This document shows positions 3,753-63,900 of a stretch of DNA of 64,000 nt, one piece after another. Location of the stretch: the NCBI GenBank assembly GCA_032622095.1, contig CP136063.1:220677982-220741981 (forward strand). Reading direction: 5' to 3'. A program made the position numbers and the translations under genes. Numbering within the stretch: the stretch's first letter is position 1; the number at the start of each line of letters is the position of its first letter. The notes below the pieces were generated by a model. That model saw nothing but the letters and a program-made list of their open reading frames with translations. It was not told the origin of the DNA and did not search any database. The DNA is from Siphonodentalium dalli (taxonomy: Eukaryota > Mollusca > Scaphopoda > Gadilida > Siphonodentaliidae).

Positions 3753-3997
3753 CCTTGAAATAGTGAGCCTGTCATTTGCAGAATGAGGTTCCCAGAGGAT
3801 GAATTTAGTGATGCTATCCCGCACAGCAGGCTAGCATCACCAAATTCACCCTCCGGGAACTTCATTCTGCTAAGGCCTAAGCAGTATGGGGTCCCCAGAG
3901 GGTGAATTGGTGATGCTAGCCCACTGTGCGGGATAGCATCACTAAATTCACCCTCTGGGGACCTCATTATGCAAATGACAGGCTCACTATTTCAAGG
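3753..3997. mobile_element. Palindromic GAGGTCCCC-family insertion with 16-bp direct repeats
   Basis: Ends CCTTGAAATAG / CTATTTCAAGG enclose two hairpins. The 16-mer CCAGTGTCTAGTCAAG occurs immediately on each side (3737-3752 and 3998-4013), which reads as a target-site duplication. Confidence 0.75.
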
Positions 3998-6379: not shown

Positions 6380-9300
6380 CTGCAAAGAAAAAATGAAATG
6401 TGAAAGTTAAATGTTAAATGAACAGATATAGGACAATAGGATTGGAGAACAGGTGGATGCATGAGTCATTTAGTACTTCCTCTCCCATCTTTGTTTGGAA
6501 ATTACAACATACATGTGCAAGTATGTCTCAATCAAGTCAATTTCTCATTTCTCAAGCCCGCTTGCATGGTCCCGAAACCCCACCCGTGCATAAATTTTAT
6601 TCTGTCAGAGGACTATAGTAATGACCCTCGTCTGTGCGTCCGTATGTGCATCCGGAACTTTGTCCAAGCCTGTATTCAGTCATTTTACAGTCAATTTTTT
6701 TTAAACTTGGCACAGATGTCAACCAGCATGGGAACCGGTAATTTTGAGTTCAGTAGGAGTCATTTTGGCAGAGTTATTTGCCATTTTTCGAAATAAAAAT
6801 GTTTTATGGTATAATCAGTGAGTATATACTATAGGGATCTGAGACCCATAAATTCTTCAAACCTGCCACATCCGTAAGGGTACATTTGGTCAGCAACCTT
6901 TTATTCACATTTAATATGTTGAGGAAAACAAGGATAATCTTAATTGGTACAAAATAATTGGTGTACTTGAATTTTTTTTACAAACATGGGCAGAAGTTAG
7001 ATCGAACAAACCCGTTTCCCAGTTCAGATTCAGATTTCCAATTGATTAGTGTAATTGGTAACTATGTTCAAACACATGAAAAATATCACTGCATCCGTTT
7101 CTTTTGACATTTAAATGGGTGAATCAGAGAGTATCTCAAAATAATTCTGAATTGAAGTAAAACTGAATCATACAGTCAGTGGTAGACTATCGCTTAGTCT
7201 CTCTACTCCATCGAGGACATTATTTGTCATTGGCTACCTTATATGAGTCAGTATTTATTGAGAACTAGAAACACTTACCCAGGAGCTGTTCCTGGAGGGC
7301 CAAATGGGTCAAATCTTGCTCCTGGTGGCACCGCCCCTCTAAGAATATAATATATATAAAATAAGTTTGAAAACAGATTTACTATCATGTGCTGTGCACA
7401 TATTGAATTTGTTTTCAAAATTTTCAGTTATAACAGTCGGCATAACCTTAATCAAAACCAGCTATATCTTAAAGATGGTCCATCTCTTCTGTGCCACAAT
7501 TACAACAACAACAACATAATTTGTATAAATAGAGATTTCAAGACTACGCATTGCTATTTGTAAATAAAATACAGACAAAACTGAGGACTGGGTATATTGT
7601 CTATAAAGGCATAATAAAGTCATTTATTTCAATTGTAATATCATGGTAAAACTATAGTTGAAATACAATTTGCCTTGATGGAGGCGGCTAGCAAGATAGA
7701 CTTGTCCTTCTTGGTATGCTTTTGGTATGATCTGAACATTTTCGTGTTGAGTTCTCTTCTAAAATAGCCTTTCTTATCAAGAAATATGTTAATACCACAA
7801 TTTTTAATCACTTAAGATCAGCATATGGGTCTGTTGGGAACTGCCCCCTAATTCAATGTACCACATATATGAAGCATTTAGATCAGACACGGTGTATTTC
7901 CTTACCTGGGTAATCTTCCCGGTAGACCTGCAGATGGATCTGGTGGGAATCGCCCCCTCATTCCTCCTCGCATGGGATCCATAAACATACCTCCGTGTCC
8001 CGCAGCTAATGGATCCAGATCACCACGCCCAACTTGTGGGAATCTCCCACCTGGATCCTCCCTAGAATCAAAAGGACATAATTATTTTATAGCTTCTGTA
8101 AAAACTGTTAAAGACTTAAAGTCCTTCCAGTGCAGAGCATCATCTGCGATTTGTGATCACCGTTAAAACTTTAATTCCACTCTATTTATGACATAATTTG
8201 GTTCTTCTGTTTTGTTTGAACAAGAGATGGACTGTCATCGGTGCATACCCCATGTGGCATACTGCCTAGTGTGGGCATACCTGCCTGTAACCTATGACTG
8301 TCATTGATGCATACCCCACCCCCATGTGGCATACTGCCTAGTGTGGGCATACCTGTAACATATGACTGATTTCCTCAGTAGGGGTGTAACGATGTTTATC
8401 GTGATACAGAGGACACGATATGATATATATCGCGATTTTACTTACCTAAAATTATAGTGATATTGCGAGTCTTCATACAAACTGTATACACTGCTATATA
8501 GCGATAACGAAAGGTGGGTATGCTTGGATGGCTACAGGTACATAAGTCGTGAACTCGCTAAAATGTGTGTAGTACATGCTCATCAAACTGTTTTTGTTGC
8601 AACTTGTACAACAACTGTATAATGTATTGTATAAGAAGAAATAAAACTAATTAAAAACATGGTTGATTTATCTACTATAGGTGGTATCACACCAGGTCGG
8701 GAAGTATTTAGGCACCCACATTGAGGCCATTGTTGCACTGCGTTGTCTGAACAAAATTAATTACAGAGAATACAAACACTACCGATTGACCAATGAAGAA
8801 CGTCGTCTCCATATTTCTCTCAGTAAATGTGAAATTGACAGTTAAATGGGAGGGGTTTTATATTATAATTCATGTCAAGTTGTCAACTAATCGGGAACTG
8901 GGAGGGCTCATTGTATCTTGACAAGTTTAATCTGGGAAGTTTGACGATTGCTCAGCGACCTCAGTGAAAAAATTGTAGCCATACAAACAAGACAGACATC
9001 AAATGTTTGCCGCCGACTGTAAACAACACGTTATTAACAAAGTCGCTCACTTGTTAAATGACGTCACATGTACTATTGAAATAGGTCATTGACATTGAGG
9101 TCACTCAGGTCAGGTCCGGGCTTCAATCAGTGTTTCACTGGCGACTACGTGTTCTCTTAATACAGTGGGTTTCATGAAGATGACCTCAGATTGGCTACCC
9201 ACGCACATTGATACAATACAGTCTGTTGGCCTTACTGTTACTCCGCGATAAATAGAGAATGGTTATAATGTGTATTATTTATTGCGGGGATTACAGCTGG

Positions 9301-15300: not shown

Positions 15301-18300
15301 AGTAATGGCAAAAATTTTGCATATTCCGTGACATTAGGACAACTTCTTTCGATAAGGCCGAATGATCAGAAAATTTAAGGCACGCAACTTGAATTATGTT
15401 TCCCATGCTGTTATACCTGTAAGGGTAAATTCAGATCATAGGCAAAAAAGAAATTCGACCACTGCAGACTTCAGTACAACTTTAGTTTTCCAGGAACTAA
15501 GAGCAGAAGATGCGAAAGACCTGGAAAATGTGCAGCCATACAGACTAGCTGGTACAGAAAACAATGTCGGAAGACAGACAACAAACATCTGGAAAACAAA
15601 ATGGACAACACAAAACAGAAAGGTAAAGAAAAATCCAGAAGTGAAAATGATATTACAGGAATAAAATCTCAGCGTGATGTTGCAAATGAACCAGAAAACG
15701 AAAATCATCAAGAGCTCAGTAAGTGGATTACAGAACAACTATTATATTGAAAAGCGTGTTTTAACACAAACATAGATACATAATTTGAATATAAAACTAC
15801 AGAGCCACTGGAGAAATGCTGACTAGATATTTTCAATAAAAAGCACACAACAATGAAAGTGTCAATGACACTGTAGCTCAACTTGGAAAGGGAATAATTT
15901 AATGTATTACAGTCAATGGAGCGATTAGGAATGTGCAAAGTTGAATGTCTAATACTAGTTTATAGACATGAAGAGAAAAGTAAAATCCAAGATGGCTGCT
16001 GGCGGCCATGTTTTCGGCCGAATGACCCCAAAATGATTGTATTCCATCTACATGTCATCGTTAACATCCATGACAAATTTTATGACGATCAGACTAAAGG
16101 TACGACCTGTAGCCTATGCTAAAGAATTTAGTCATACAAAGAGTAAAATCCAATATTAACAACCATGACAAATTTCATGATGATCAGACGAACAGTACGA
16201 CCTGTGGCCCATGGCGGCCATGTTTTTTGTCCGAATGACCCCAAAAAGACTCGTTCACATTTACATTCCAATTTCAACAGCCATGACAAATTTTATGATG
16301 ATCAGACTAAATGTACGACCTGTAGCCCGTGCTAAAGGATTTAGTCATACAAAGAGTAAAATCAAAGATGGCTGCTGGCGGCCATGTTTTTCTGCCGAAT
16401 GACCCCAAAATTACTCGTTCCCATTTACATTCCAATTTCAACAGCCATGACAAATTTTATGATGATCAGACTAAAGGTACGACCTGTAGCCCGTGCTAAA
16501 GGATTTAGTCATACAAAGAGTAAAATCAAAGATGGCTGCTGGCGGCCATGTTTTTCTGCCGAATGACCCCAAAATGACTCGTTCCCATCTACATGTCATT
16601 ATTAACATTCACGACAAATTTTATGATGATCAGACTAAAGGTACAACCTGTAGCCCGTGCTAAAGGATTTAGTCATACAAAGAGTAAAATCCAAGATGGC
16701 TGCTGGCGACCATGTTTTTTGGCCGAATGACCCCAAAATTACTCGTTCCCATCTACATGTCATTGTTAACATCCATGACAAATTTTATGATGATCAGACG
16801 AACAGTACGACCTGTGGCCCGTGCTAATGGATTAAATTTTGAAATCAAAGATGGCCACTGGCGGCCATGTTTATTGGCCGAATGACCCCAAAATGACTCG
16901 TTCCCATCTACATTCCAATTTCAACAGCCATGACAAATTTTATGATGATCAGACTAAAGGTACGGCCTGTAGCCCGTGCTAAAGGATTTAGTCATACAAA
17001 GAGTAAAATCCAAGATGGCTGCTGGCGGCCATGTTTTTTGGCCGATTGACCCCAAAATGACTCGTTCCCATCTACATGTCATTATTAACATTCTTGACAA
17101 ATTTTATGATGATCAGACTAAAAGTAGGACCTGTAGCCCGTGCTAAAGGATTTAGTCATACAAAGAGTAAAATCCAAGATGGCTGCTGGCGGCCATGTTT
17201 TTTGGCCGAATGACCCCAAAATTACTCGTTCCCATTTACATGTCAATATTAACATCCATGACAAATTTGATGATGATCAGACTAAAGGTACGACCTGTAG
17301 CCCGTGCTAAAGAATTTAGTCATACAAAGAGTAAAATCCAAGAAGGCTGCTGGCCGCCATGTTTTTTGGCCGAATGACCCCAAAATTACTCGTTCCCATC
17401 TACATGTCAATATTAACATCCATGACAAATTTCATGATGATCAGACGAACAGTACGACCTGTGGCCCGTGCTAATGGATTGAATTTTGAAATCCAAGATG
17501 GCCGCTGGCGGCCATGTTTTTTGTCCGAATGACCCCAAAATGACTCGTTCCCATCTACATTCCAATTTCAACAGCCATGACAAATTTTATGATGATCGGA
17601 CTAAAGGTACGACCTGTAGCCCGTGCTAAAGGATTTAGTCATACAAAGAGTGAAATCAAAGATGCCTGCTGGCGGCCATGTTTTTGGGCCAAATGACCCC
17701 AAAATGACTCGTTCCCATCTACATGTCATTATTAACATTCTTGACAAATTTTATGATGATCAGACTAAAAGTACGACCTGTAGCCCGTGCTAAAGAATTT
17801 AGTCATACAAAGAGTAAAATCCAAGATGGCTGCTGGCGGCCATGTTTTTGGGCCGAATGACCCCAAAATTACTCGTTCCCATCTACATGTCAATATTAAC
17901 ATCCATGACAAATTTCATGACGATCAGACAAACAGTACGCCCTGTAGCCCGTGCTAATGGATTGAATTTTGAAATGCAAGATGGCCACTGGCGGCCATGT
18001 ATTTTTACCGAATGACCCCAAAATTAATTAATCATTCTGGTCTAAATGTTGATGTCAACAGCTATGACAAATTTCATAATGATCCGACCAAAGGTACGAC
18101 CTGTAGACTGCATTGTTGACGCTTTACGTACACACGTACACACGTACACACGGACGACGGACGACAAAGCCATGGCAATAGCTCAAACTTTACAAAGTAA
18201 AGTTGAGCTAAAAATGGAAAGATATGACTATAATGAACAGCAGAGTACAAAAGATGGAAACAACAATAAGAAAGATCGAGAGAAGATCAGAAAATTTTGA

Positions 18301-36900: not shown

Positions 36901-39900
36901 TGGGTAAATGGCAAAATTAGCTAGTCAAATTCGGGTCACGGACCACAGTGGAAATAAAGCACTAGTATGAGCCTTAATTGTGCTATACTTGGCCTTGGGG
37001 GCCAAATAATAAGAAAGTCTGGATATAGTGTGTCTGACATTTACAGAATGAGGTCTCCAGAGGGTGAAATTTGGTGACACTATCCTGCACAGTGGGCTTG
37101 TGTCACCAAATTCACCCTCTGGGAACCTCATTTTGTGTAGGCCACAACTGCTATGGAAGACCTAAGATCAGATTGATGTTCCCCAGTTGAAGTTGGTGAT
37201 GTTCACCCATTATTGACCTCAATTATGCATTTTATCTTCTGCAAATTAGGGGATATTGAAATTGATGTTAATTTGAGACTATAGATACTTCCCAGACATT
37301 CCACTGTGTGGGATAGTGTCACTAAATTCAACCTCTGGGGACCTCATTCTGTAAATGTCAGACACACCATATCCAGTCTTGGCAATAGAGTACAGCCCTG
37401 TTATTATTAATTAGCAGGTCAAAGATTTTACTTCAGCTAAAAAGCCTATGAGCTGTATAGTGAGACTCTCTACAAATACATTGTATAAACTTGAGTTTAT
37501 AATTTGGTTTGTGACTGGTTTAAGATAGTTGATTCCCAAATATTATATTTAAAACAATAGTCTTTGTTATCTTGTCCTTCCTGTTAGCCCAGACAATACT
37601 TTCATGCAAATGCAATGCAAATTCGGTTAAATTTTGCACAAAATTTTGCCAGCTTCAGAAAATTGCTTCGTCTAATAAATAGTTTACCGAATTTCTGTTT
37701 GCCTCGGCTGACACTAATTAACATGGCTGACAGTATAATTATACCCCCACTTTCGAAGAAAATGGGGGGTATACTGGATTGACTGCATCTGTCTGTCACA
37801 CTTTCTCTCTCCGTGTGTCGAGCCGTCCATACGTCCGTCGTACCGTCCGTCCAACCTCATAACTCGAACAACTATGAACCGATTTCAATAATTTTTTGTA
37901 TGCAATCTCCTTAGGCAGGCCTCTCTGCATGATGCTAATTGCGGTGTGGTCCGACTTTCTTTTTTGTAAGTTACGCCTTACTTTTCGACTTATTTAGACT
38001 TAGAAAATTCTGTCCGACTTAATAATTTTAACAAATATGAACCGATTTCAATAATTTTTGGTATACATGCTTCTCACAACACCCTCTCTACATGATGCGG
38101 CTCAGGGTTGGCTCGGACTGTTTTTCCTAACATTACACTTCATTTTCGACTTATTTTGACTTAGAAAATTTTGGGATTTTTTTTTTGTGGATGCTTTTTT
38201 CCCTGGAGTTGTGTGCTTTCTTAGCAGAAGTTTGGTTTGACTGACGAAACACTCGACAAAAGCCTTCTTAGATGTTAAGGTTGCGTTTCATTTTCTACCC
38301 TTTTTTGGGTTTCTGCAATCATTCGAACAAATATGAACCAATTTGAATATTTTTTTCTGTACAAGCTTCTTGCGACACCATATCGATATTATTAATCCAA
38401 ATTTTTCTTTAAAGTTAAAAATCTTTTTTGTTGGGTTTACGGATAGTGCGGGTTGAATTTGCCACGGTGGGGGTATGCTAGCACGCGAGTGCACACCTCT
38501 TGTTTTTACTCTATTACAGCCACGATAAAGCTCATATGCTTCTTATCTTTTCAGGAAAACTTAGTTGAGAGCAAGCATCATAAACTTGCAAGAAGTGTGA
38601 GAAGTGGACTGACAGATAAAGATATGAAACCTGATGCTCGCACACGAGATCACCTCAATGTAAGTATTATTAGACAAATTGTTGCTTGTCTTGTCATATT
38701 ATAAGTTTTTCTGGTTGATTAATGGTAACATGGAGTGTCTTAACGGCTTGTAGTTAATTTCTGCCAACAGTCCTAGTCTTTCATAGCAATTTGACAATTT
38801 ATTCCGGATGAATATTAGAAAAAATATTGAAATCTCCTATCTGTCTCACCATGACGTTGTTCATCGTAAATGATGTTTCAGGCTCAATCAAGAAACTAAC
38901 TCTCAACAAGTATCCAGGTATTTAAGTTCCTAATCAGTCATCCTAATTAACACTCCATGACTGGAGATTCCTAAAATTTTGCTAAAACCATGTGCCAATG
39001 CACATAGGGATCCTCGCATATATATACATTGGCCTAACAATATTACCTTGACCTTGTAAACCAGTGCATTCTCTTATATATGCGAGACTGCCTATGGGAG
39101 ACTCGCATGTATAAGAGAATGCACTGGCACATGCTTTTTAATGCTGCACCAGCGCAGCTCCTGTTATAAAAGGGTTAAAAATTAAAACGCGGGTCAACCA
39201 GCGCTAGGTAATGTACATTAATGTTAATGTTCTTTCTCTTCCAGACTATAGTTAGATATCCACCCAGTAAACCACTGAGCTCTGAGGAAAAAGATTTACT
39301 TTGGAAATTTAGATTTTATCTGTCTAGTCAAAAGCAGGTATGACTAATCTCGTTCTATCTCTCATGTTATCCGTACTACAACATTCATTGGTATGACTAA
39401 TCTTGTTCTATCTCTCATGTTATTAGTACTACAGCATTCTTTGGTATGACTAATCTTGTTCTATCTCTCATATTGTCAGTACTACAGCATTCATTGGTAT
39501 GACTAATCTTGTTCTATCTCTCATGTTATTAGTACTACAGCATTCATTGGTATGACTAATCTCGTTCTATCTCTCTGATGTTGTCAGTACTAGGGTTGCT
39601 CAGTATGTTTGCAAACCATGGCTATACCCACCACTACATGAATAAATTTGTCCGACCTATATATTCTCATATGTCTGTTTTCTGCTCATTTTTCCTGAAC
39701 ACCCCTCCAAACATATAATGGACCATTCCAATGTATACTCATTTAACTGAATGGGAGAATCCATTTAGTAGAGTAAGGGTTAAGTAATCTCACTATGATC
39801 TGCCATTAATTCAAACTCCATGCAGGGTTTACCTCCCTTGATGAATTGGTAAGACCGATGCTACTGGCGACATTTTACCTACATTTGGTGGACTTCCGCT

Positions 39901-42900
39901 AATTATATATATATACAAAGTGAAAAGAGCCACATGTCGCCCTTTATCAACCATACAAAATATAATAGAACAATTATGTAATTTTGTACATTAAGTTTGG
40001 AAAGTCCCATTAAAACCAAAGTACTATATCTCCAATCTGTGTGATTTGGTTCTCCGATAATTTTATCAACACAAACGTCTGAACACACATAGATGACAAC
40101 ATGCATGGCAAACATCTGTCAAGTCAAACACAAGAATTCTAATTTGCTGCCATTTTGCTGAGTAGCATGCGAAAATCATCAACAAAACTACCACTCTAAT
40201 TCTCCATTCGGTCAATAAGTTTTTAGTGCAGCAATTGTTCTCAAAGGACATAGGAAATTTGACATTCGGGCGATCGGTTCTGCCATTTTGGCTGGAAAAA
40301 CCAGCTCTGCTAAATATAGAAAACCACAGACTAGTACCCAGTCGGTGACGGAGTCAAAAGGAGGTATGACTGATGTGCTCTAGTAGATATTGTCATTCAT
40401 TTAAGAAATGGATGTTGATTTCCTTGCATTCCATAGAGTATGGATGCAAGTTTGTCTGACATTTGGTGAGGAACAAATTTGACATCCATTACTTATATTT
40501 ACACTCAACTGAGTCAACTGGCAGATTAGAAGAGCATTAAGCGCCCATTTCCAACGTTGTTCTCGTGTCTTGATGCAAGTTGCGTCTACACTAAAATGGA
40601 TGCAAGTTGGGGTCAGTGCGCGACGTCATGTGACGTAATTTCGACCAACCAACGTCCTGCATTCATGTTCCACAAAGCGAATGCATGTGTGAGTGTAAAT
40701 ATTTTGATGTTTTCTTCCATTTCAGGCTCTCACAAAATTCTTGAAGTGCGTAACTTGGACTGTTGCTCAGGAGAGTAAACAAGCCATTGAAATGTTGGTC
40801 CGCTGGAGTCCAATCGATTCTGAAGATGCTCTCGAACTTCTGTCTCCTGAATTCACACATCCAACTCTCAGAAAATATGCCATATCTCGGCTCAGACAGG
40901 CCGTGGATGATGTAAACATTTATTCTTAGAACTAAAGCTAAAGCATAGATATGAAGAAACACATACACAAAATAAGCCTGAGTTTCGTGTGTCTGTCATT
41001 TGCAGAAAGAGGTTCCCAGAGGGTGAATTTAGCTGGCTAGCATCACTAAATTCACCCTCTGGGGACCTCATTCTGCTCAGGCCTCATCTTTTCTGGAAAG
41101 TTTCTTTATTATAAAATCTCTATAGAAATTTCTCCACATAGTTACTGCATGTATATCTTTTTTATTGTTTGGTTTCTCTATATCCTCAAATTGGCAGAAG
41201 ACACATTGCATAATCGAGGTTCCCAATGGGTGTACATCACAATATTCACCATTTGGGAACTTCAATCTGAATCTATGTCTCCCATAGCAGGAGGCCATGC
41301 AGAATGAAGTGACCCAGAGGGTGAATTTGGTGAATCTGGGGACCTCATTCTGCAAATGACAGGCACCTTATACTCAGGCACACACACAAATATTGTGAGT
41401 TGGGCAAAAGAGATAATGGAAATGGGTGCAGATAGCAACCGCAAAAACTTCAATGGGTCTTGCCAGGAATGAATATCAACAAATGAGCACTGATTTACCT
41501 ACGTTGTCTTATATCGAAACCACAAAAGTAAAGTATTGTCACTTGATAGGATAGGATAGGATAGGATAATTTTATTAGTCGAGTTTTTTTCCAAAACTCG
41601 ACTTATAGTTTGATGGGGGACGGTGGGCGGGCGGACGGGCGGGCGGCGGACGGGCGGCCTGTTTTGCTTATAACTCAACCGTTTATTGACGGATTAAAAT
41701 TTTGTTGGTGTGTGAGTACATATCCATGCACGTAAGCTGCAGACAAAAATTCTGGTTCGTCCGCACATTTATTACCGAGTTATGGCCCTTTGCCATTTTT
41801 CACTGATTTTAGGCTCGTTAGCGCGATAACTTCAACAAACGTTATCCGATTTGATTGAAATTTGGTATATAGGTGTCTCCCAAGAATATCTCGGATGAGT
41901 TCGAAAATCAGCCTGGTCCGATAAAATTTGAAAGAGTTATGGCCCTTAATTAGTCATTTTTCACGAATTTTCAGCTCGTTAGCGCGATAACATCAACAAA
42001 CGTTATCCGATTTGATTGAAATTTGGTATATAGATGTCTCCCAAGAATATCTCGGTCGAGTTCGAAAACCGGCCAGGTCCGATAAAATTTGATAGAGTTA
42101 TGGCCCTTAATTAGTCATTTTTCATGAATTTTCAGCTCGTTAGCGCGATAACTTCAACAAACGTTATCCGATTTGATTGAAATTTGGTATATAGGTGTCT
42201 CCCAAGAATATCTCGGACGAATTCGAAAATCGGCCTGGTTCGATAAAATTTAATAGAGTTATGGCCCTTAATTAGTCATTTTTCACGAATTTTCAGCTCG
42301 TTAGCGCGATAACTTCAACAAACGTTATCCGATTTGATTGAAATTTGGTTTATAGGTGTCTCCCAAGAATATCTCGGTCGAGTTCGAAAACCGGCCAGGT
42401 CCAATAAAATTTGATAGAGTTATGGCCCTTAATTAGTCATTTTTTCGCAAATTTTCAGCTCGTTAGCGCGATAATTTAACAAACATCATCCTATTTGATT
42501 GAAATTTTGATATATATGTGTCTCCCAAGAATACCTCGGACGAGTTAGAAAACCGGCCCGGTCCGATAAAATTTGATAGAGTTATGGTCCTTAAGTAGTC
42601 ATTTTGTACGAATTTTGAGCTCGTTAGCGCGATAACTTCAACATACGTCATCCGATTCAACTAAAATTTGGTATATAAGTGTCTTCCAATAATATCCTGG
42701 ACGAGTTCGAAAACCAGCCTGGCCCGATAATATTTTATAGAGTTATGGCCCTTAATTAGTCATTTTTCGTGAATTTTTAGCTCGTTAGCGCTATGACTTC
42801 AACAAACGTCCTCCGATTTGTTTAAAATTTGGAATAGACGTACTTGCCAAGAATATTTCGGACGAGTTCGAAAACCAGCCTGGCCCGATAAAATTTGATG

Positions 42901-45900
42901 GAGTTATGGCCCTTAATTAGTCATTTTTCGATTTTACCTATTAATTATTCTACCGATACTGATGCACACCATTTGGCGGTAGCCACCGGCGGTAAGCCAC
43001 CGAAAACGAGACACAGCATCTCTGATGCCACCTCTTGTTTACAATATACACACATGGAAAGTACAATTACAAATAAATATAATATTAATAGACTATACAT
43101 GTATATTGCTAGGGGTGATATAGTCATGGCTGACTGTCTTCCTATCACCCCTTGATTAAGAAAGTACATAGTTCCAGCAGCTAATCAACATTGTTTAATC
43201 ATATGTAACATTTAATAAATTGTTATTCATACACAGGCAAGTAGCTGCTGATTACCTGTTAACCTTGTCATGACTGGAACTTCCTAAAATTTTGCGAATA
43301 CCCTGTGCCAATGCAATCTCTGATATATGCGAGTCCCATAGGGAGCCTCACATATATAAGAGAATGCATTGGCCTAACAATATTTACCTTGACCTTGTAA
43401 TCCAGTGTATTCTCTTATATATGCAATGCTCCCTATGGGAGACTTACATATATAAGAGAATGCATTGGCCTAACAATATTTACCTTGACCTTGTAAGCCA
43501 GTGTATATTCTTTTTATGCAATCCTCCCTATGTGAGACTCGCATATATATAAGAGAATGCACTGGCACATGATTGTAATGCTGCACTTGCGCAGCTCCCG
43601 TCATGAAAGGGTTTCATGGAGATTATTTACAGGAGATATGATCATTTTTTCAGGACCTCTACCTCTACCTGCTGCAGCTTGTACAGGCATTAAAGTATGA
43701 GAACTTCAGTGAAATTAAAACTGGTTCTGATACTGGAATGACTCAGCAAAAACAGGACTCGGTAGAACAAGTTCCTTCCTCACATGAACGTGATAGGTAA
43801 CCATGGCTATTTATTGTGCTCTTAACACCACTAAACTAGTGTCCTGGAAATTATTACTTCATCAGTTCGAAAACTCACTTAATTAATATACCCCGGAAAT
43901 ATGATACCCCCCCCCCCCCCCAATACCACAATGTCGTCTATGGTTAGAGGTCGTACCGATACGCCGTACACAGAAACAAAGTCACTGGGAGTGAATATGC
44001 TGTACGAAAGACATGTAAATGAAGTGAGCGAGATGTGAGCGAATTGAATGAATGTCATTTGATCTAATAATAATATGTACCTCTGTTTCTATATACATTC
44101 CTTCATTGGTTTCTATTTATTCCAATAAGAACAAAAAATATATATTTTTATTGCGCTCTCTTTTCGTTTTTTTAACTGCTACTTATCATCCCTTCTTTTC
44201 ATAGATCAAGTGCACATCAATGTCATTACAGGTACCCATCCAAGCTGCAAAACAGTGTTCAGTCCCCTCGCTACGCTATGTTTGACCGCTGCCGGCATGT
44301 GTATTTTCTTAATTAAATCTAACATTTTTTGTTGGTGTTTTGTCAGTTACAATTCATTCTGGCTTGATTTAGACAATGCGTAGGAGACACCACCGATAAT
44401 TTTTGGTGGCCCAGTAAACAGTCGACAAGAAGAAAGGTCTCAGACCAAATTGTAGATGAAGATGGATAACTCTAAAATCAAGTGACATTTTTGTGTTTTT
44501 TTTATGTCAGATATTTGACAAACCGGCAATTTTTTTAACAAAATGTTGATAAATAATAGGTTTTGGGCAATTTTATACTATAGTTGACTGTGGTTAGCAT
44601 TATTGTTGGGCAATTAATTGATTCTGATAAATGAGGCGGCATTTAATAAAATTTTGTTGTTGGAATCTGATCAAATCGGATTGAGTACCTTTAAGTCCAC
44701 TGCATGTGGATTATCTAAGAGTTCAAAATGGCAGAATTCAGTCACTATACCGATTGTGAAAGTTTGGAAGGACATCAGGCCTATATATAGTTACTTTCAT
44801 ACATCATTTGTACATCGTATTCACATCTATCAGTATTCATAATGAAAATGGGCTGCATGCATATTCTAGTTGACACTCTTCATCATATGGTAGATGGTCT
44901 ATTTCACAAAAAATGCATATCATGGTTAGATAATACAATATTAATTCATGCACAATCTCTTATCATAATGAGGTTTTTGGCTTGTTATATGTCAATCGAT
45001 TTAAGCATTCCAGGACTGTTCCGTAGCTTCGCTGTTGATTCCAGATTAGATTTGAATTGAAAATTCAAATCTGCAAGGCTCTGGACATGAGATGTCATGC
45101 TTGAATACACAAAGCATCTGCAATCCAGGGTTCGAGCTGGAGCCAAATGCAAAAATAATTCACATTTCAAGCAAATTTGGATTCCTCATGAATGTAGAAA
45201 CTATTTATTAAGAAATTGGTTACCGTACTCATTCTTGACTTCTTCCAGGGCTGTTAGCACACTTTCAAGGGCTTCCTCAATCGACTCCATATCTGAAGCT
45301 CTGGGTAATTTGACGATGGCTCCTGAAGAAAGCGCAGAGAGTAAGCTGGACAATGAGGTGAGATGTTTCATTATTAGTTCACTCATGATTAAAGGGCTAT
45401 TCAGACGGCTATGAGCGATGCGACTTCAGTATCGACGCTTAATTAGGACAAACATAATATTACTGAGGTATTCACATGGCATCATGAGTGACGTGATGCA
45501 AGCGACATCACCAAAGCATCAATCGCAAGGATAGGATTTGTTCTAATTGAGCAACATGATCAGTGCGTTTACTCGAGTGTTGTCGGCTTTTTCAATGACG
45601 GAGATAGACGAAGTCACCGGATGTGGATCCATCAACATTATAAGTTCATTCGTTGCCATCAGAATGGCTACTTCAAATTCAACATATATAGCATAAATAT
45701 AAATAAATGAACTATATATAACAAGACACAGCATCATACAAAACACAGAGAGAACATATGGAATATATGGATGCACATGGCATTCAAAAGACTATTTCAG
45801 TGTCATTGACTCGACGTGTGTTGGAATAATGAGCCAACACTGTGGGCTCATTAGTCCAACACACATCGAGTCAATGGCCCTTGTGGAAATCAACCATATA

Positions 45901-48900
45901 TACTATATGTGATGACTTGCTGCAAAGTTGCCATTTGAAGACGCAAAACAAACAAGAGGATCAACCCCAATAGAGGATGACAGAATTTCCACAAGAATAT
46001 ATCATATAATTTGGTGCCATTGATGCAGAAATCGCAATGCTCACATCGCTCGCGACGCCATCTATAAGGGCCTTTAGGGTCCGGTTGGTTCATGTAGGAA
46101 TAATACAGTTAAGATTGTTGATAGAACTAGGAGGCGAGGAGGTCCTTGTGATTAATCATTGTTATATCAAATGTCAATGCAGACACCTTTCATTCTATTA
46201 TTCAGCTAATAATTTCATCAAACAGTTTTACGCTTTTGTAAAACTAATTCATTTAGGTAAAATTAACAAATTCAAGTGAAAATATTTTATCGTAGAGACC
46301 TATCTTGAAACTCTCAATTCTGTTAGTTCATTGAACTGTTTGGACCTTCATTTGAAAGTCATGTAATGGAAGCAAGCCTTGAAATAATGTGTCTGGCATT
46401 TGCAGAATGAGATCCCCAGAGGGTGAATTTGGTGATGCTAGCCCACTCATTCTGCTTATCCTCATCTTCTGGGAAGTATCTATAGTCTCAAAATAACATT
46501 GTTTTAGTTATTTTTCAGTTATGTTCAGTTTCTATATCCCCTAATTCGCTTAACAACTTCAACTGGGAACTTTTATCTGATACCTGTCTCCCATAGCAGT
46601 AATACCTAAGCAGAATCAAGTTCCAAGAGGTTGAATTTGGTGATGCCAGCCCGCTGAGCATGAAACCCTCACTAAATTCAACCGCTGGGGACCTCATTCT
46701 GCATTTGTCAGACACACTATATCCAGACGTGGATGCACAGTACTCACAAGATCTCTACTAAAACAAAGGAAGCTACATGTGAGCCACGGTACTCACAAGA
46801 TCTCTACTAAAACAAAGGAAGCTAAATGTGAGCCACAGTACTCACAAGATCTCTACTAAAACAAAGGAAGCTACATGTGAGCCACAGTACTCACAAGATC
46901 TCTACTAAAACAAAGCAAGCTACTTGTGAGCCACAGTACTCACAATATCTCTACTAAAACAAAGGAAGCTACATATGAGCCACAGTACTCACAAGATCTC
47001 TACTAAAACAAAGGAAGCTACATGTGAGCCACAGTACTCACAAGATCTCTACTAAAACAAAGCAAGCTACTTGTGAGCCACAGTACTCACAATATATCTA
47101 CTAAAACAAAGGAAGCTACATGTGAGCCACAGTACTCACAAGATCTCTACTAAAACTAAGGAAGCTACTTGTGAGCCAGTCACAGTACTCACAAGATCTC
47201 TACTAAAACAAAGGAAGCTACATGTGAGCCACAGTACTCACAAGATCTCTACTAAAAAATGAAGCTACATGTGAGCCACAGTACTCACAAGATATCTACT
47301 AAAACAAAGCAAGCTACTTGTGAGCCACAGTACTCACAAGATCTCTACTAAAACAAAGGAAGCTAAATGTGAGCCACAGTACTCACAAGATCTCTACTAA
47401 AACAAAGGAAGCTACATGTGAGCCACAGTACTCACAAGATCTCTACTAAAACAAAGGAAGCTACATGTGAGCCACAGTACTCAAAGATCTCTACTAAAAC
47501 AAAGGAAGCTACATGTGAGCCACAGTACTCACAAGATCTCTACTAAAACTAAGGAAGCTACATGTGAGCCACGGTACTCACAAGATCTCTACTAAAACAA
47601 AGGAAGCTACATGTGAGCCACGGTACTCACAAGATCTCTACTAAAACAAAGGAAGCTACATGTGAGCCACGGTACTCACAAGATCTCTACTAAAACAAAG
47701 GAAGCTACATGTGAGCCACGGTACTCACAAGATCTCTACTAAAACAAAGGAAGCTACATGTGAGCCACAGTCCTCACAAGATCTCTACTAAAACAAAGGA
47801 AGCTACATGTGAGTCACGGTACTCACAAGATCTCTACTAAAACAAAGGAAGCTACATGTGAGCCACAGTACTCACAAGATCTATACTTATCATGTAACTC
47901 AGGAATCTAGATAATTCTTTCTATGGTGCATGTTATAAATTTATTGTCCCCCGAAAAATTAATTTTCGTGGACTATAGAAACGGGCTCCGTTCGTCCGTT
48001 CGTTCGTCTGTCCGTCCGTCACACTTTTGAGTACCTTCATGGTGTAATATCATCTCCTCCTACAGATTTCATCCCAGAGATTTGAAACTTCAGAATATTG
48101 TTGCCCATATATTGAAGATGTGCAACATGTATATAGATGACGGATTTTTTTTTTTTTTTTGACGGAGTTATTAACCCTTTTCGACATTTCAACATTTTTT
48201 ATAAAAAAGCTGCATTGACTTGCCATGTTGTCGGGGGACAATGTGGTCGGCTGACCTTTTATTTCAGATGGATTTGGCTTCATTTCTCAATGTAACTCAT
48301 GAATCTAGATAATTGTTTGAATCATGCATGTTATAAATTTATTTCAGAGGGATTTGGCGACATTTCAATCACGCATGTTATAAATTTATTTCAGATGGAT
48401 TTGGCTACATTTCTATCATGCATGTTATAAATTTATTTCAGATGGATTTGGCTACATTTCTCATACACAGATCTTGTAACAACTCAACATTAGCAAACTA
48501 CTTCTACTGGTATGTAGTCTGCAACTAATACAAATATAAACGCTCTTTATTAATGTTTGAGCAAACTTCCTCTACTGGTATATAGTCTGCAACTAATAGA
48601 ATTTTAAACGCTCTTTATTAATGTTTGAGCAAAGAACTTCTACTGGTATGTAGTTTGCAACTAATGGAAATTTAAAGCTCTTTATTACTGTTTGGTGTGT
48701 GCTCGCATTTCGGATGTTTTCACCATATAAACACCTTAATAAAAGTAATTCCCCCTCATATAATACCCTGTATCTCCTGTGATATTCATCTGATCGTATT
48801 GATATTTTTAACAAATTGATAAATTGGTAAAATGTCTAACCTTTTGAATGTCTCTTGATTGAAAAAATTGTCATTTAAAAAAAAATCACACTTAAAATTT

Positions 48901-57900: not shown

Positions 57901-60900
57901 AAACAAGCCCTGTATTTCGGTGTTGAATGGGTCACCATAAATATTTCTCCAAAAAAAATCGCCACAGTGTCGAGTGTTTTGCTTATCGCTCACTAATTAC
58001 ATGCTGCGTATAAACAAAGGATCGGCTCACACAAAGTGTGTTTTGTGGATAATATCACATTCATACTTTCATTATACTATGAGAAACTAAGGCCATTCAA
58101 CAGAGTTTCCTTGTTTCTCATCAGACTTTTTTCTGAGAATGGAGCGGGAGCGCATTTTGTTTTTTGTTTTTTGTATTGTAACTTCTAAGTCAACTCATAG
58201 TAAATTTAGACAATCACCTTTTTGTCATTTAGATGTGTATATGTGGTTAAAATTGGAACATTGGTCAGAAGTTAATGTGAGATGATTTGCACGGGATTTA
58301 AATTATTCACTGGCCCTCCCAGAGTATGACATGAATATTAATGATAGTGCACATTGAACTGCACTACTGCAGAAATCATGGCCAATAGTAAAAAAGCTGT
58401 TAACTTATCAACAGGCCCCGCCCCTGAGTGGCCTACAATCTGTCAATTTAAGATTGATTCATAGCAATATAAAATTGACGTTCCTTAAGTTATAGGTCAG
58501 AAGTTAGTGTTCTTTGTAATAATTATGCCTTCCGATCTGTTGGCCAAGACAAAGCTTTTTGTTTGATATAAGAATAGGACTCCTCACAAAAGACATTATC
58601 CTATTTTTGCGTGGTAGAATCAGTTTCAGTACATACTTAAATCGGGTTTACACAGTTCCAACTTCAATGTTTATTTCTTTCTATACATAGTACTCACATT
58701 CTAGCAAACTTTTGTTCTGACAGCCAAGTATGCTTACCACTTTTAGTTGCTTTATTCTATTGTAAAAAGACCCGACAATGGGTATATGTATATTTTCTGT
58801 AATCAAAATTGCATATGAAAGTACCTGTACTGCATGTACATTGTGATCTATGTACATATCGCGATAAACACCAAAACCACATATTGTTACACCCTAGCAT
58901 TTTAACATTTGACCGACATTTTGTCTTCGCATATGTGCGACATACATCATTTATAAAATTTAAAAAAATTAGAGACGGGTGATAAAATGAGAAACAAGGA
59001 ATCTTTGTTGAATGGCCTAAACTAAAAAAGAAATTGAATCTATGTGAAGAAGTTTCTATAGTGATATTTTGATAATAAAGAAACTTTCCAGAGAAGATGA
59101 GGCCTTAGCAGAATGAGGTCCCCAGAGGGTGAATTTAGTGATGCTAGCCTGCTATGCTGGATAGCGTCACTAAATTCACCCTCTGGGGACCTCATTCTGC
59201 AAATGACAGGCACCTTATTCTCAGGCCTGGTAATGTCTCTTGATACTTTCAATCAAAATCAAATACATATGCTATTTTGCAGAGTGCCTTGATGCCATGC
59301 AGACTCACTTTTAAGACTGTTGAGGGTGGACAGTATGTTACTATATTTAAACACGGAGATGATCCACGGCAGGATCAGCTAATTTTACAAATCATATGTC
59401 TGATGGATCGGGTGAGTTTGTTTTAAGACTGTGATGATGGCAGTATGTTACTATATTTAAACATGGAGATGATCCACGGCAGGATCAGCTAATTTTACAA
59501 ATCATATGTCTGATTGATCGGGTGAGTTTGTTTTAAGACTGTTGAGGTTAGACAGTATGTTACTATATTTAAACATGGAGATGATCCACGGCAGGATCAG
59601 CTAATTTTACAAATCATATGTCTGATGGATCAGGTGAGTTTGTTTTAAGACTGTTGGGAGCAGACAGTATGTTACTATATTTAAACACGGAGATGATCCA
59701 TGGCATGATTAGCTAATTATACAAATCATATGTCTGATGGATCGGGTGAGTTTGTTTTAAGACTGTTGAGGCCAGCAGTATGTTACTATATTTAAACATG
59801 GATATGATCCATGGCATGATTAGCTAATTTTACAAATCATATGTCTGATGGATCGGGTGAGTTTGTTTTAAGACTGTTGGGAGCAGACAGTATGTTACTA
59901 TATTTAAACACAGAGATGATCCATGGCATGATTAGCTAATTTTACAAATCATATGTCTGATGGATCGGGTGAGTTTGTTTTAAGACTGTTGAGGGTGGAC
60001 AGTATGTTACTATATTTAAACATGGAGATGATCCACGGCAGGATCAGCTAATTTTACAAATCATATGTCTGATGGATCGGGTGAGTTTGTTTTAAGACTG
60101 TGATGACGGCAGTATGTTACTATATTTAAACATGGAGATGATCCACGGCAGGATCAGCTAATTTTACAAATCATAATTCTGATGGATCGGGTGAGTTTGT
60201 TTTAAGACTGTTGAGGTTAGACAGTATGTTACTATATTTAAACACGGAGATGATCCATGGCATGATTAGCTAATTATACAAATCATATGTCTGATGGATC
60301 AGGTGAGTTTGTTTTAAGACTGTTGAGGGCGGTCAGTATGTTACTATATTTAAACATGGAGATGATCCATGGCATGATTAGCTAATTATACAAATCATAT
60401 GTCTGATGGATCGGGTGAGTTTGTTTTAAGACTGTTGAGGGCGGTCAGTATGTTACTATATTTAAACATGGAGATGATCCATGGCATGATTAGCTAATTA
60501 TACAAATCGTATGTCTGATGGATCAGGTGAGTTTGTTTTAAGACTGTTGAGGGCGGTCAGTATGTTACTATATTTAAACATGGAGATGATCCATGGCATG
60601 ATTAGCTAATTATACAAATCATATGTCTGATGGATCAGGTGAGTTTGTTTTAAGACTGTGATGACGGCAGTATGTTACTATATTTAAACATGGAGATGAT
60701 CCACGGCAGGATCAGCTAATTTTACAAATCATATGTCTGATGGATCGGGTGAGTTTGTTTTAAGACTGTTGAGGGCAGACAGTATGTTACTATATTTAAA
60801 CACAGAGATGATCCATGGAAGGATCAGCTAATTTTACAAATCATAATTCTGATGGACCGGGTGAGTTTGATGAACTGTATTTAACTTGATTGTTCTACAT

Positions 60901-63900
60901 GAAGCTACTTCAATAATATGTATTCATTATTAGGCATGAGAGATACAACCTGTGCACTGGTGAATTGCGATGTTACTCGGCACACATGTTTCGTATCAAG
61001 GCATAAACAATTGCAGTTTTGCTATATGGTTGAGTACATATTTTTCTCAATTAGTATAAGCAATTTCCAGACTTTCCAAGTTTTTTTTTTCATTGTTTGG
61101 TGCCACAGTTTTGTTAGTAAATGTGCTGACCACAGGGATTTTTCTGACCCAATTCACATATCGCTTATGAAAACAAAGATACTAATATACTTATATACTT
61201 AAATTATTGTAAATTATGGACGAAATATACTACTTCCCCTCCATGTAACACATACTTTGAGCCCCCCCCCCCCAAACTACAGTCATGCAGATATAAACAT
61301 CAAAGCAAAGTTCACAACAATAAAATGAATGATTCAGGAGGGATAACTTTACTTTCCCAAATGTACTCTGGTCAACACATTCATTCCATTATGAAGCCGT
61401 ACGAGGTCAGCCGAGTGATAACACTTGGTCTGTACTTTCGCTTTCATAACTTACTAGCTTGTATCAATTTGCAATGTCAAATAAGTGGGGTGTATCGCTT
61501 CAAAATCTCTTAATACATGGAGGGAAGTCCTATATTGTATATATATATTTCTTTGTTCACCAATTAAATGGACATGGCTCATTCAAGTTTCCAAATTTGT
61601 CTATGTAATTTGGAAGGAGGTATAAGGTAGGTTGAGATATTGAGATAGCGGCTCCATATGCTCTGACCAATACATCCAGCTGTTTTTAATTTATCGTACA
61701 CTAGTGAAATAAATGCTCATAATTTTCACCATATCAGACTAACATGGAATGCTTGTTTGGTGTAAACATTATTTATTTAGTATCCCAGATTTATACAACA
61801 ATTTACAAAATGATGTTAATATATATATATGTATGATAAGTATGATAAGTCTGAGAGAGAAGAGGATTTTACATCAAGCGCCAGGCGCTTATATGGAGCC
61901 ATGCTTGTTTCTGTTCCATGTCGGGAACATGGCTGTTGTTTGTTTGGGTTCGAAACACTATGTTCAAAGTCGTATTTTTTGTAACTTCAGTGCATCTTTC
62001 TGGGACGTATAATACCCGTAGAAAGGTAGATCAAGTATTTATCAACATATTTCGATACCGCGAAAAAAACTCAAATATTATTAAGCGTATTTTTGGAGTG
62101 AAAAACACCATATGGCTTTAAATTAATTTTTATTAATTTCCGTTTTAGCTGCTGAAAAGAGAAAACTTAGACCTGAAGCTGACTCCTTACAAAGTGATAG
62201 CTACAAGCACTAAGCATGGTATGCTGCCGTAACTTTGTTAGATTTATCTGGTCATTTTAAATATTAAAGGTACAAATGTACTCAATATGATTCGATGGTC
62301 CCCATATCATCACACTCCCAACAACAACAACATTTTTTTTAAATGCTGCTTCAGTTATCAGAATCGATTAATTGCCCAAAAATAATGCTAACCACAGTCA
62401 AATATAGTATAAAATTGCCCAAACCTGTTTTTTAACAACATTTTGTTCAACGAAATTGTGCCAATTGATTTTAGAGTTATCCATCTTCATCAGAAATTTG
62501 GTCCAAGACCGTCTTCTCGTTGACTGTTTACTGGGCCACTAAAAATTATTGGTGGTGACAAATAATAGATTTCTAAAATCGATATCTGATCACTCTGAGC
62601 TTTGATGGGTGGATTCCTCGACTCGAATCAAATATTTTTTTACCCCCGAAGCCAAGGAAATAGTAATTTTGCGAGCATTAATTCAGATTATGCATCTTTA
62701 AATACATGAAACAACTAAAATTATTGTACCAAGTGTCGACTCCGAAAATGGATTACACATCTTTGAAGTCACCAGAGTGTCAATGCCATATAAAATATTC
62801 TTAAACCCTTCCATGGTGGGAGCTGTGCTGATGTAGCATTAAAGATCATGTGCCCATGCATTATCTTATATATAAGAGAATGCACTGGCTGACAAGGTCA
62901 AGGTAAATATTGTTAGGCCAAGGCCAAACAACAAAATTTGATTCTCAGGGAATTTTTTTTTTTCAATTAATGAGGGAGCGAGGGTTTTATTTGTATTTTT
63001 TATTTTTTCTGACCATAGACTGGCATTGTAAGCATGGGTTATTATACCTTCCCAGGTCAAAATGTAAGTAGAACTTTGTAATGGATATAAACTAATTTAA
63101 TGTGATATAACGAATGACAAATTATGACATTGTACTACCCACACATCATATAGGGATTACCTAAATGATATATATATGTTGATATCATTTTAACATCGGC
63201 ACTATCATTTTTAACAACATGCAGAACTACCTATCCGATTCATATAAAAATATGGAATGTAAATACAGTCGAAACGAAATGATAAAGTAATCCTCCTAAC
63301 TATCATAAAAAGTCTTGATTCACTTATTAGAGACTGTATATGTACCGCAATGGATGATAGACAAATAACCATCATAAACATTGCCAAAATACACCCTTGT
63401 CAACTGTATTGCGCTCTGGTTTGAGTACCTTCGATCGCAATAGTGTAGCAAGGGGGGAAACTCTATCTTGCAGGGTTACTTACTTACTGTACAAAGGTCT
63501 AACATCCAGCTGATCTTTTACAAAATATTTGAACACACTTGACCAATAAACTTGGTGGTTTGGACAACCTGTGGTGACAATATACCTGATAGTTATTGTT
63601 TGGACAGCCTGTGATGACAATATACCTTATAGTTATAGATGCCTATGGTCTTTTGTTGAATACCCACACATACACCATTGGATTTAGCTCCTATTCGATA
63701 TTTGAAACATAACTAATTTCCGTGTGACAATTTCCTATTTTCGTGTTATTGATTTACAACATCCAAAATCGAAATAAAATGTTCCGATGGCCATTTTTTC
63801 CGATGAGGTTATGCCTGAGAATCAAAACCCTTTTTTTTTTGTGGCCTTATTACAACATTTTTATTTTCTAATTTGCCTCTTTGATAAAAATATTGTTTTT

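Follow-up and report, generated by a model that had tools for sequence, protein, structure and literature searches.

A conserved exon of the VPS34/PIK3C3 gene of Siphonodentalium dalli ends in a 14-unit tandem array, in which the final part of the exon is repeated head to tail together with its splice donor. The array lies in a window of 64,000 nucleotides (the whole stretch of DNA that was analyzed), to which coordinates refer unless a locus is named. Its layout suggests a minisatellite that probably arose by chance tandem duplication across the donor and would be tolerated since the first donor is presumably the one used. Most likely, the additional copies ride along as passengers in the intron, where they could have a slight disruptive effect on splicing.

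The array and its host exon

59283-59411, + strand: VPS34/PIK3C3 exon that contains the IFKHGDD stretch; of the 16 exon matches in the window, the 14th
59309-60869, + strand: 14-unit head-to-tail tandem array (TRF, unit list and genome search)
59412-59417, + strand: first donor, GTGAGT preceded by CGG; joined to the exon at 62149, it gives a VPS34-like protein
59421-60869, + strand: 13 intronic copies, each with GTGAGT (preceded by CGG in nine and by CAG in four)
62149-62218, + strand: next exon, 70 nt (tblastn; donor GT at 62219)

A tblastn search with a human query sequence placed 16 VPS34 exon matches in order on the + strand from 21894 to 63992. The 43-residue exon at 59283-59411 matched PDB PIK3C3 chains over its full 43 residues (phmmer, E ~1e-14), and both searches agree with the earlier note, made from the letters alone, that the host exon belongs to VPS34. 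The lysine in IFKHGDD is presumably the ATP-binding one, and the kinase domain extends past the window, with PI3K-domain matches at C3:220743505 and C3:220744672.

The same note described fourteen tandem copies, and TRF (period 112, 14.0 copies, 92% matches), the unit list and a search of the assembly all returned that number; it set the start of the array at 59283, whereas the repeat actually begins inside the exon, at 59309. The units start at 59309, 59421, 59531, 59643, 59755, 59866, 59978, 60090, 60200, 60312, 60424, 60536, 60648 and 60758, and are 112 bp long in ten cases, 111 bp in one and 110 bp in three. Unit 1 consists of the final 103 nt of the exon and nine intronic nucleotides. Beyond unit 14 the 3' flank is unrelated intron, and the exon at 62149 bears no relation to the unit. 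Within the 2.23-Gb assembly, unit 1 found 14 matches, every one of them in the VPS34 array.

Where a consensus donor had been credited to most copies, GTGAGT is present in all 14 units, in the context CGG/GTGAGT (the slash marking the splice junction) in ten, as in the exon, and CAG/GTGAGT in four. On a weight-based score, these contexts reach 7.5 and 9.2, respectively, and the decoys therefore equal or exceed the first donor; the exon's real donor at 59412 itself has the top score among the 12 native VPS34 donors scored. Joining the first donor to the exon at 62149 gives a PIK3C3-like reading across the junction. Reading through it instead yields V-S-L-F-stop, as anticipated in the earlier note, and since this TAA lies four codons past the first donor, splicing from any later donor would truncate the kinase. 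Since the stop sits at the first unit boundary, it would be included whichever later donor was used. The TAG codons ascribed to some copies are likewise there, in frame, in six of the nine later 112-bp units.

We propose that a segment that begins 27 nt into the exon and ends 9 nt beyond the splice donor was duplicated in tandem and then grew to 14 units via unequal exchange or slippage. Everything beyond the first donor would then be intron, and the array could be tolerated because that donor leaves the exon unchanged. The first donor would be favored by being nearest to its own exon's acceptor and by being transcribed first; against this passenger reading, the decoys are as strong or stronger, so strength does not guarantee that the first one is used. 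Rare use of a later donor would bring in the premature stop, after which the mRNA should go to decay or, alternatively, might give a truncated kinase. The array is one of many in a genome rich in tandem repeats, where such arrays land on other splice junctions as well.

Arrays at other splice junctions

Three further arrays within VPS34 itself also cover splice sites; the earlier note had picked up neither these nor the recurrence at other genes:

39337-39592, + strand: second donor array, 53-bp unit, 4.8 copies (TRF)
48316-48460, + strand: acceptor array, 47-bp unit, 3.1 copies, carrying TTTCAG/ATGGATTTGG (TRF)
48492-48694, + strand: third donor array, 68-bp unit, 3.0 copies (TRF)

The second donor array begins on the last base of exon 39245-39337 (CAG/GTATGA) and repeats its donor. 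The other two arrays overlap both sides of the 68-nt exon 48442-48509: the last copy of the acceptor array is the true start of this exon, with an additional acceptor-like copy at 48260-48285, and the unit of the third donor array carries the end of the exon plus its donor, CTG/GTATGT. The coding copy is the first in the VPS34 donor arrays and the last in the acceptor array. Tandem arrays make up 12-13% of the window, and by our own estimate, four covered junctions among some thirty in VPS34 are about what this coverage alone would produce.

Other repeats were noted in passing. One VPS34 intron holds a 49-bp unit repeated 23.5 times (46736-47887), and at L020, another VPS34 exon downstream of the window, an exactly repeated 32-bp unit (267-398, 4.1 copies) ends just before the acceptor. 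Arrays with units of ~164 and 161 bp (16212-18106 and 41794-42929 in the window; also at L121, L123 and L124) recur at several places in the genome. Several introns also contain a short inverted-repeat element with CAGAGGGTGAATTTAGTGATGCTA (59105-59203, 2774-2969 and 3778-3972 in the window; 6538-6704 at L126), which looks like a miniature transposable element. No match was obtained for a mollusc haemocyanin model, a negative that carries no weight.

Junctions across several gene families were surveyed for TRF arrays with a period of at least 15 that cover an exon's donor or acceptor end. The first survey comprised 120 exons, each taken with 400 bp of flank on either side: the 24 listed PI3K/PI4K matches in full, 29 of 39 CCT matches and 67 of 103 kinesin matches. 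Left out were near-identical paralogues, a number of long-frame matches and the last part of the kinesin list. Arrays spanned the donor in 13 of these exons (12 by rule and L063 on inspection) and the acceptor in two (L017 and L101). The donor-spanning units combine 4-72 nt of exon with 4-42 nt of intron, and their length is a multiple of three in seven of 13 (P 0.10). Junction-spanning arrays therefore recur in this genome, and a special role for donors is possible but not established.

Several of these arrays are long: among kinesin and PI3K-family exons, the exon end and donor are repeated 12.6-fold at L103 (587-1016), 14-fold at L101 (516-944) and 8.1-fold at L009 (500-757), the units of the last being identical. 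At L041, L022 and L038 the donor-spanning units (39, 36 and 63 bp, respectively) are multiples of three and, over the stretch translated, the reading frame continues into the following unit without a stop; splicing from a later donor at these loci would therefore insert a repeated peptide.

An alternative to a birth by chance is that donors are preferred birthplaces of tandem duplications here, for example through polymerase pausing or R-loops, an idea that we regard as unlikely. In its specific form, to which we give the same limited credence, the duplication would end ~4-16 nt past the donor and start variably within the exon, as in 13 of the 180 exons sampled. The shape of the units is consistent with this, since they contain little intron (a median of 12 nt, and no more than 16 nt in nine of 13), less than half of the unit (Wilcoxon P 0.027). 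So is the count in the first survey, which exceeds random placement and in that respect speaks against plain chance: in a background sample of 15 stretches (149 kb near the surveyed genes), the first unit of an array with a period of 15-120 spanned 88 of 5393 matched positions (1.6%), or 186 of 5393 (3.4%) when all periods were admitted, compared with 13 of 120 donors (P 1e-7 and 3e-4, respectively). These two P values are too small because background positions are correlated: the 88 trace to 36 array starts, of which a single stretch contributes 17. Plain coverage is another matter, since arrays cover ~13% of background positions and the 12 of 120 donor ends covered by rule do not rise above this. 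Automatic junction calls, moreover, recovered just eight of the 13 survey donors; by these calls, arrays spanned nine of 133 donors (a doubtful SNF2 case, L154, included) and two of 138 acceptors.

The follow-up sets also speak against a donor hot-spot. For the first, 40 SNF2 exons (14 of 54 matches having been dropped as long multi-stop, long-frame, weak or paralogous), an expectation of about four donor arrays was fixed in advance; no donor-spanning array was found in the 40, and two acceptors were array-spanned (L157 and L158). An array starting 8 nt past the donor at L153 was left uncounted. The second, made up of 18 UCH and two myosin exons whose matches end inside the domain, was searched in 331-bp pieces on the donor side only and likewise gave no donor array in 20. 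Pooling all sets leaves 13 of 180 donors, still above background (P 1.8e-5 against 1.6%; P 0.012 against 3.4%), and over the 160 exons for which both ends were scored, 13 donors versus four acceptors were array-spanned (P 0.049); the sets nevertheless disagree with one another (13 of 120 versus 0 of 60, P 0.005). Given the empty follow-ups, and repeat coverage at least as high away from exons, a hot-spot at donors is unproven.

Divergence of the units and the status of the decoys

The units differ at 23 of 112 columns, in blocks: a single site separates units 1 and 7, one or two sites separate units 10-12 from each other, and two to four separate units 2, 8 and 13. Such a pattern is typical of unequal exchange. 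The nine later 112-bp units show 13 distinct codon changes that alter the amino acid, among them the stop present in six units, versus four silent ones, and the later units thus appear to vary like non-coding DNA, consistent with their proposed status as intronic passengers.

Conservation of the donors themselves bears on whether selection instead retains the array because it functions as a splicing device, such as a U1 snRNP platform or a dosage brake on VPS34. In favor of this, all 14 donors are intact and four are stronger than the real one, yet the donor window of the VPS34 array has one variable column and 52% of 9-column windows have as few; its constancy is therefore not unusual, and this array taken alone lends no support to selection on decoy donors. 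Pooled over 15 arrays (the one at 39337 left out), donor windows contained seven variable columns where 12.5 would be expected (one-sided P 0.049); this hints weakly at retention of decoy donors and, to that extent, counts against the passenger reading. The copies are homogenized, however, and hence not independent, and GT has been lost from five of nine decoys at L041 and from one of 13 at L101. On balance, we consider a selected device very improbable.

That the array is an artefact of assembly is more improbable still, since its units differ in a block-like pattern and it is embedded in a 301-Mb contig between unique flanks. There is next to no prospect that the units serve as alternative or mutually exclusive exons: the peptide of unit 7 is identical to that of unit 1 and an AG precedes each copy, but stops occur in ten of 14 units in the frame shown (four, unit 1 included, being open to the unit end), only 16 nt separate a donor from the following AG within the array, and neither a usable acceptor for each copy nor a consistently open frame was found.

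The acceptor-like unit start GTTTTAAG/ACT, to which the earlier note had drawn attention, was rejected as a splice site. Each later unit begins with TTTTAAGACTG, which is copied exon sequence encoding F-K-T, and on a weight-based score the site reaches -3.1 to -3.6 in six of the units, below all nine true VPS34 acceptors (-1.3 to 7.3).

Comparison with known systems and implications

The closest precedent is a VNTR in intron 18 of human ABCA7. The GT of the 25-bp intronic unit (23.7 copies in the reference) is the donor of exon 18, and canonical splicing proceeds from the first unit (PMC5954066). Retention of one unit accounts for ~2% of the isoforms measured and frameshifts the mRNA, while arrays of greater length are associated with increased exon 19 skipping and reduced expression (PMC5954066). 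The VPS34 array is alike in that the real donor of the exon before it sits in the first unit and recurs in the further ones. It differs in that 103 nt of coding exon form part of its 112-bp unit, whereas the ABCA7 unit is intronic; in arrangement, the array at 39337 of the same VPS34 gene comes nearer to ABCA7. The ABCA7 repeat has measured length polymorphism and measured effects on splicing, whereas the 14-unit VPS34 array is known from the sequence of one assembly. By analogy, the length of the VPS34 array may modulate splicing of the downstream 70-nt exon, the skipping of which would shift the frame. With ABCA7 as precedent, the suggestion in the earlier note that decoy donors put splicing at risk seems plausible.

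Other parallels are more distant. Internal tandem repeats at exon-intron boundaries change gene structure in human segmental duplications (PMC2812944); those were found by comparing paralogues in recent duplications, whereas the arrays described here lie in single genes of one animal genome. Intron gain by tandem duplication likewise copies splice signals, in a potato case across an intron-exon boundary (PMC4974935). Its hallmark, a new intron between copies, was not seen in the VPS34 array, where the exon at 62149 does not resemble the unit and the acceptor-like site is weak. What appears new relative to these systems is a unit in which a donor is repeated along with 103 nt of its catalytic exon, the presence of several such arrays in one gene and their recurrence across unrelated genes. 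Among the matches listed in a literature search of partial coverage, no genome-wide class of donor-spanning arrays was found.

Donor arrays beside a conserved exon provide natural material for asking how the spliceosome selects one of several equal donors, and the VPS34 array in particular for asking how much leakage can be tolerated in a vital kinase. Should the donor excess of the first survey hold genome-wide, the birth of minisatellites would be tied to splice sites; should it fail, the genome would still provide many natural donor and acceptor arrays for such tests. If donors are indeed hot-spots, a mutation process tied to transcription or splicing would be at work, a sizeable minority of exons would end in copies of their own end and donor, and these arrays would form a standing source of splice isoforms.
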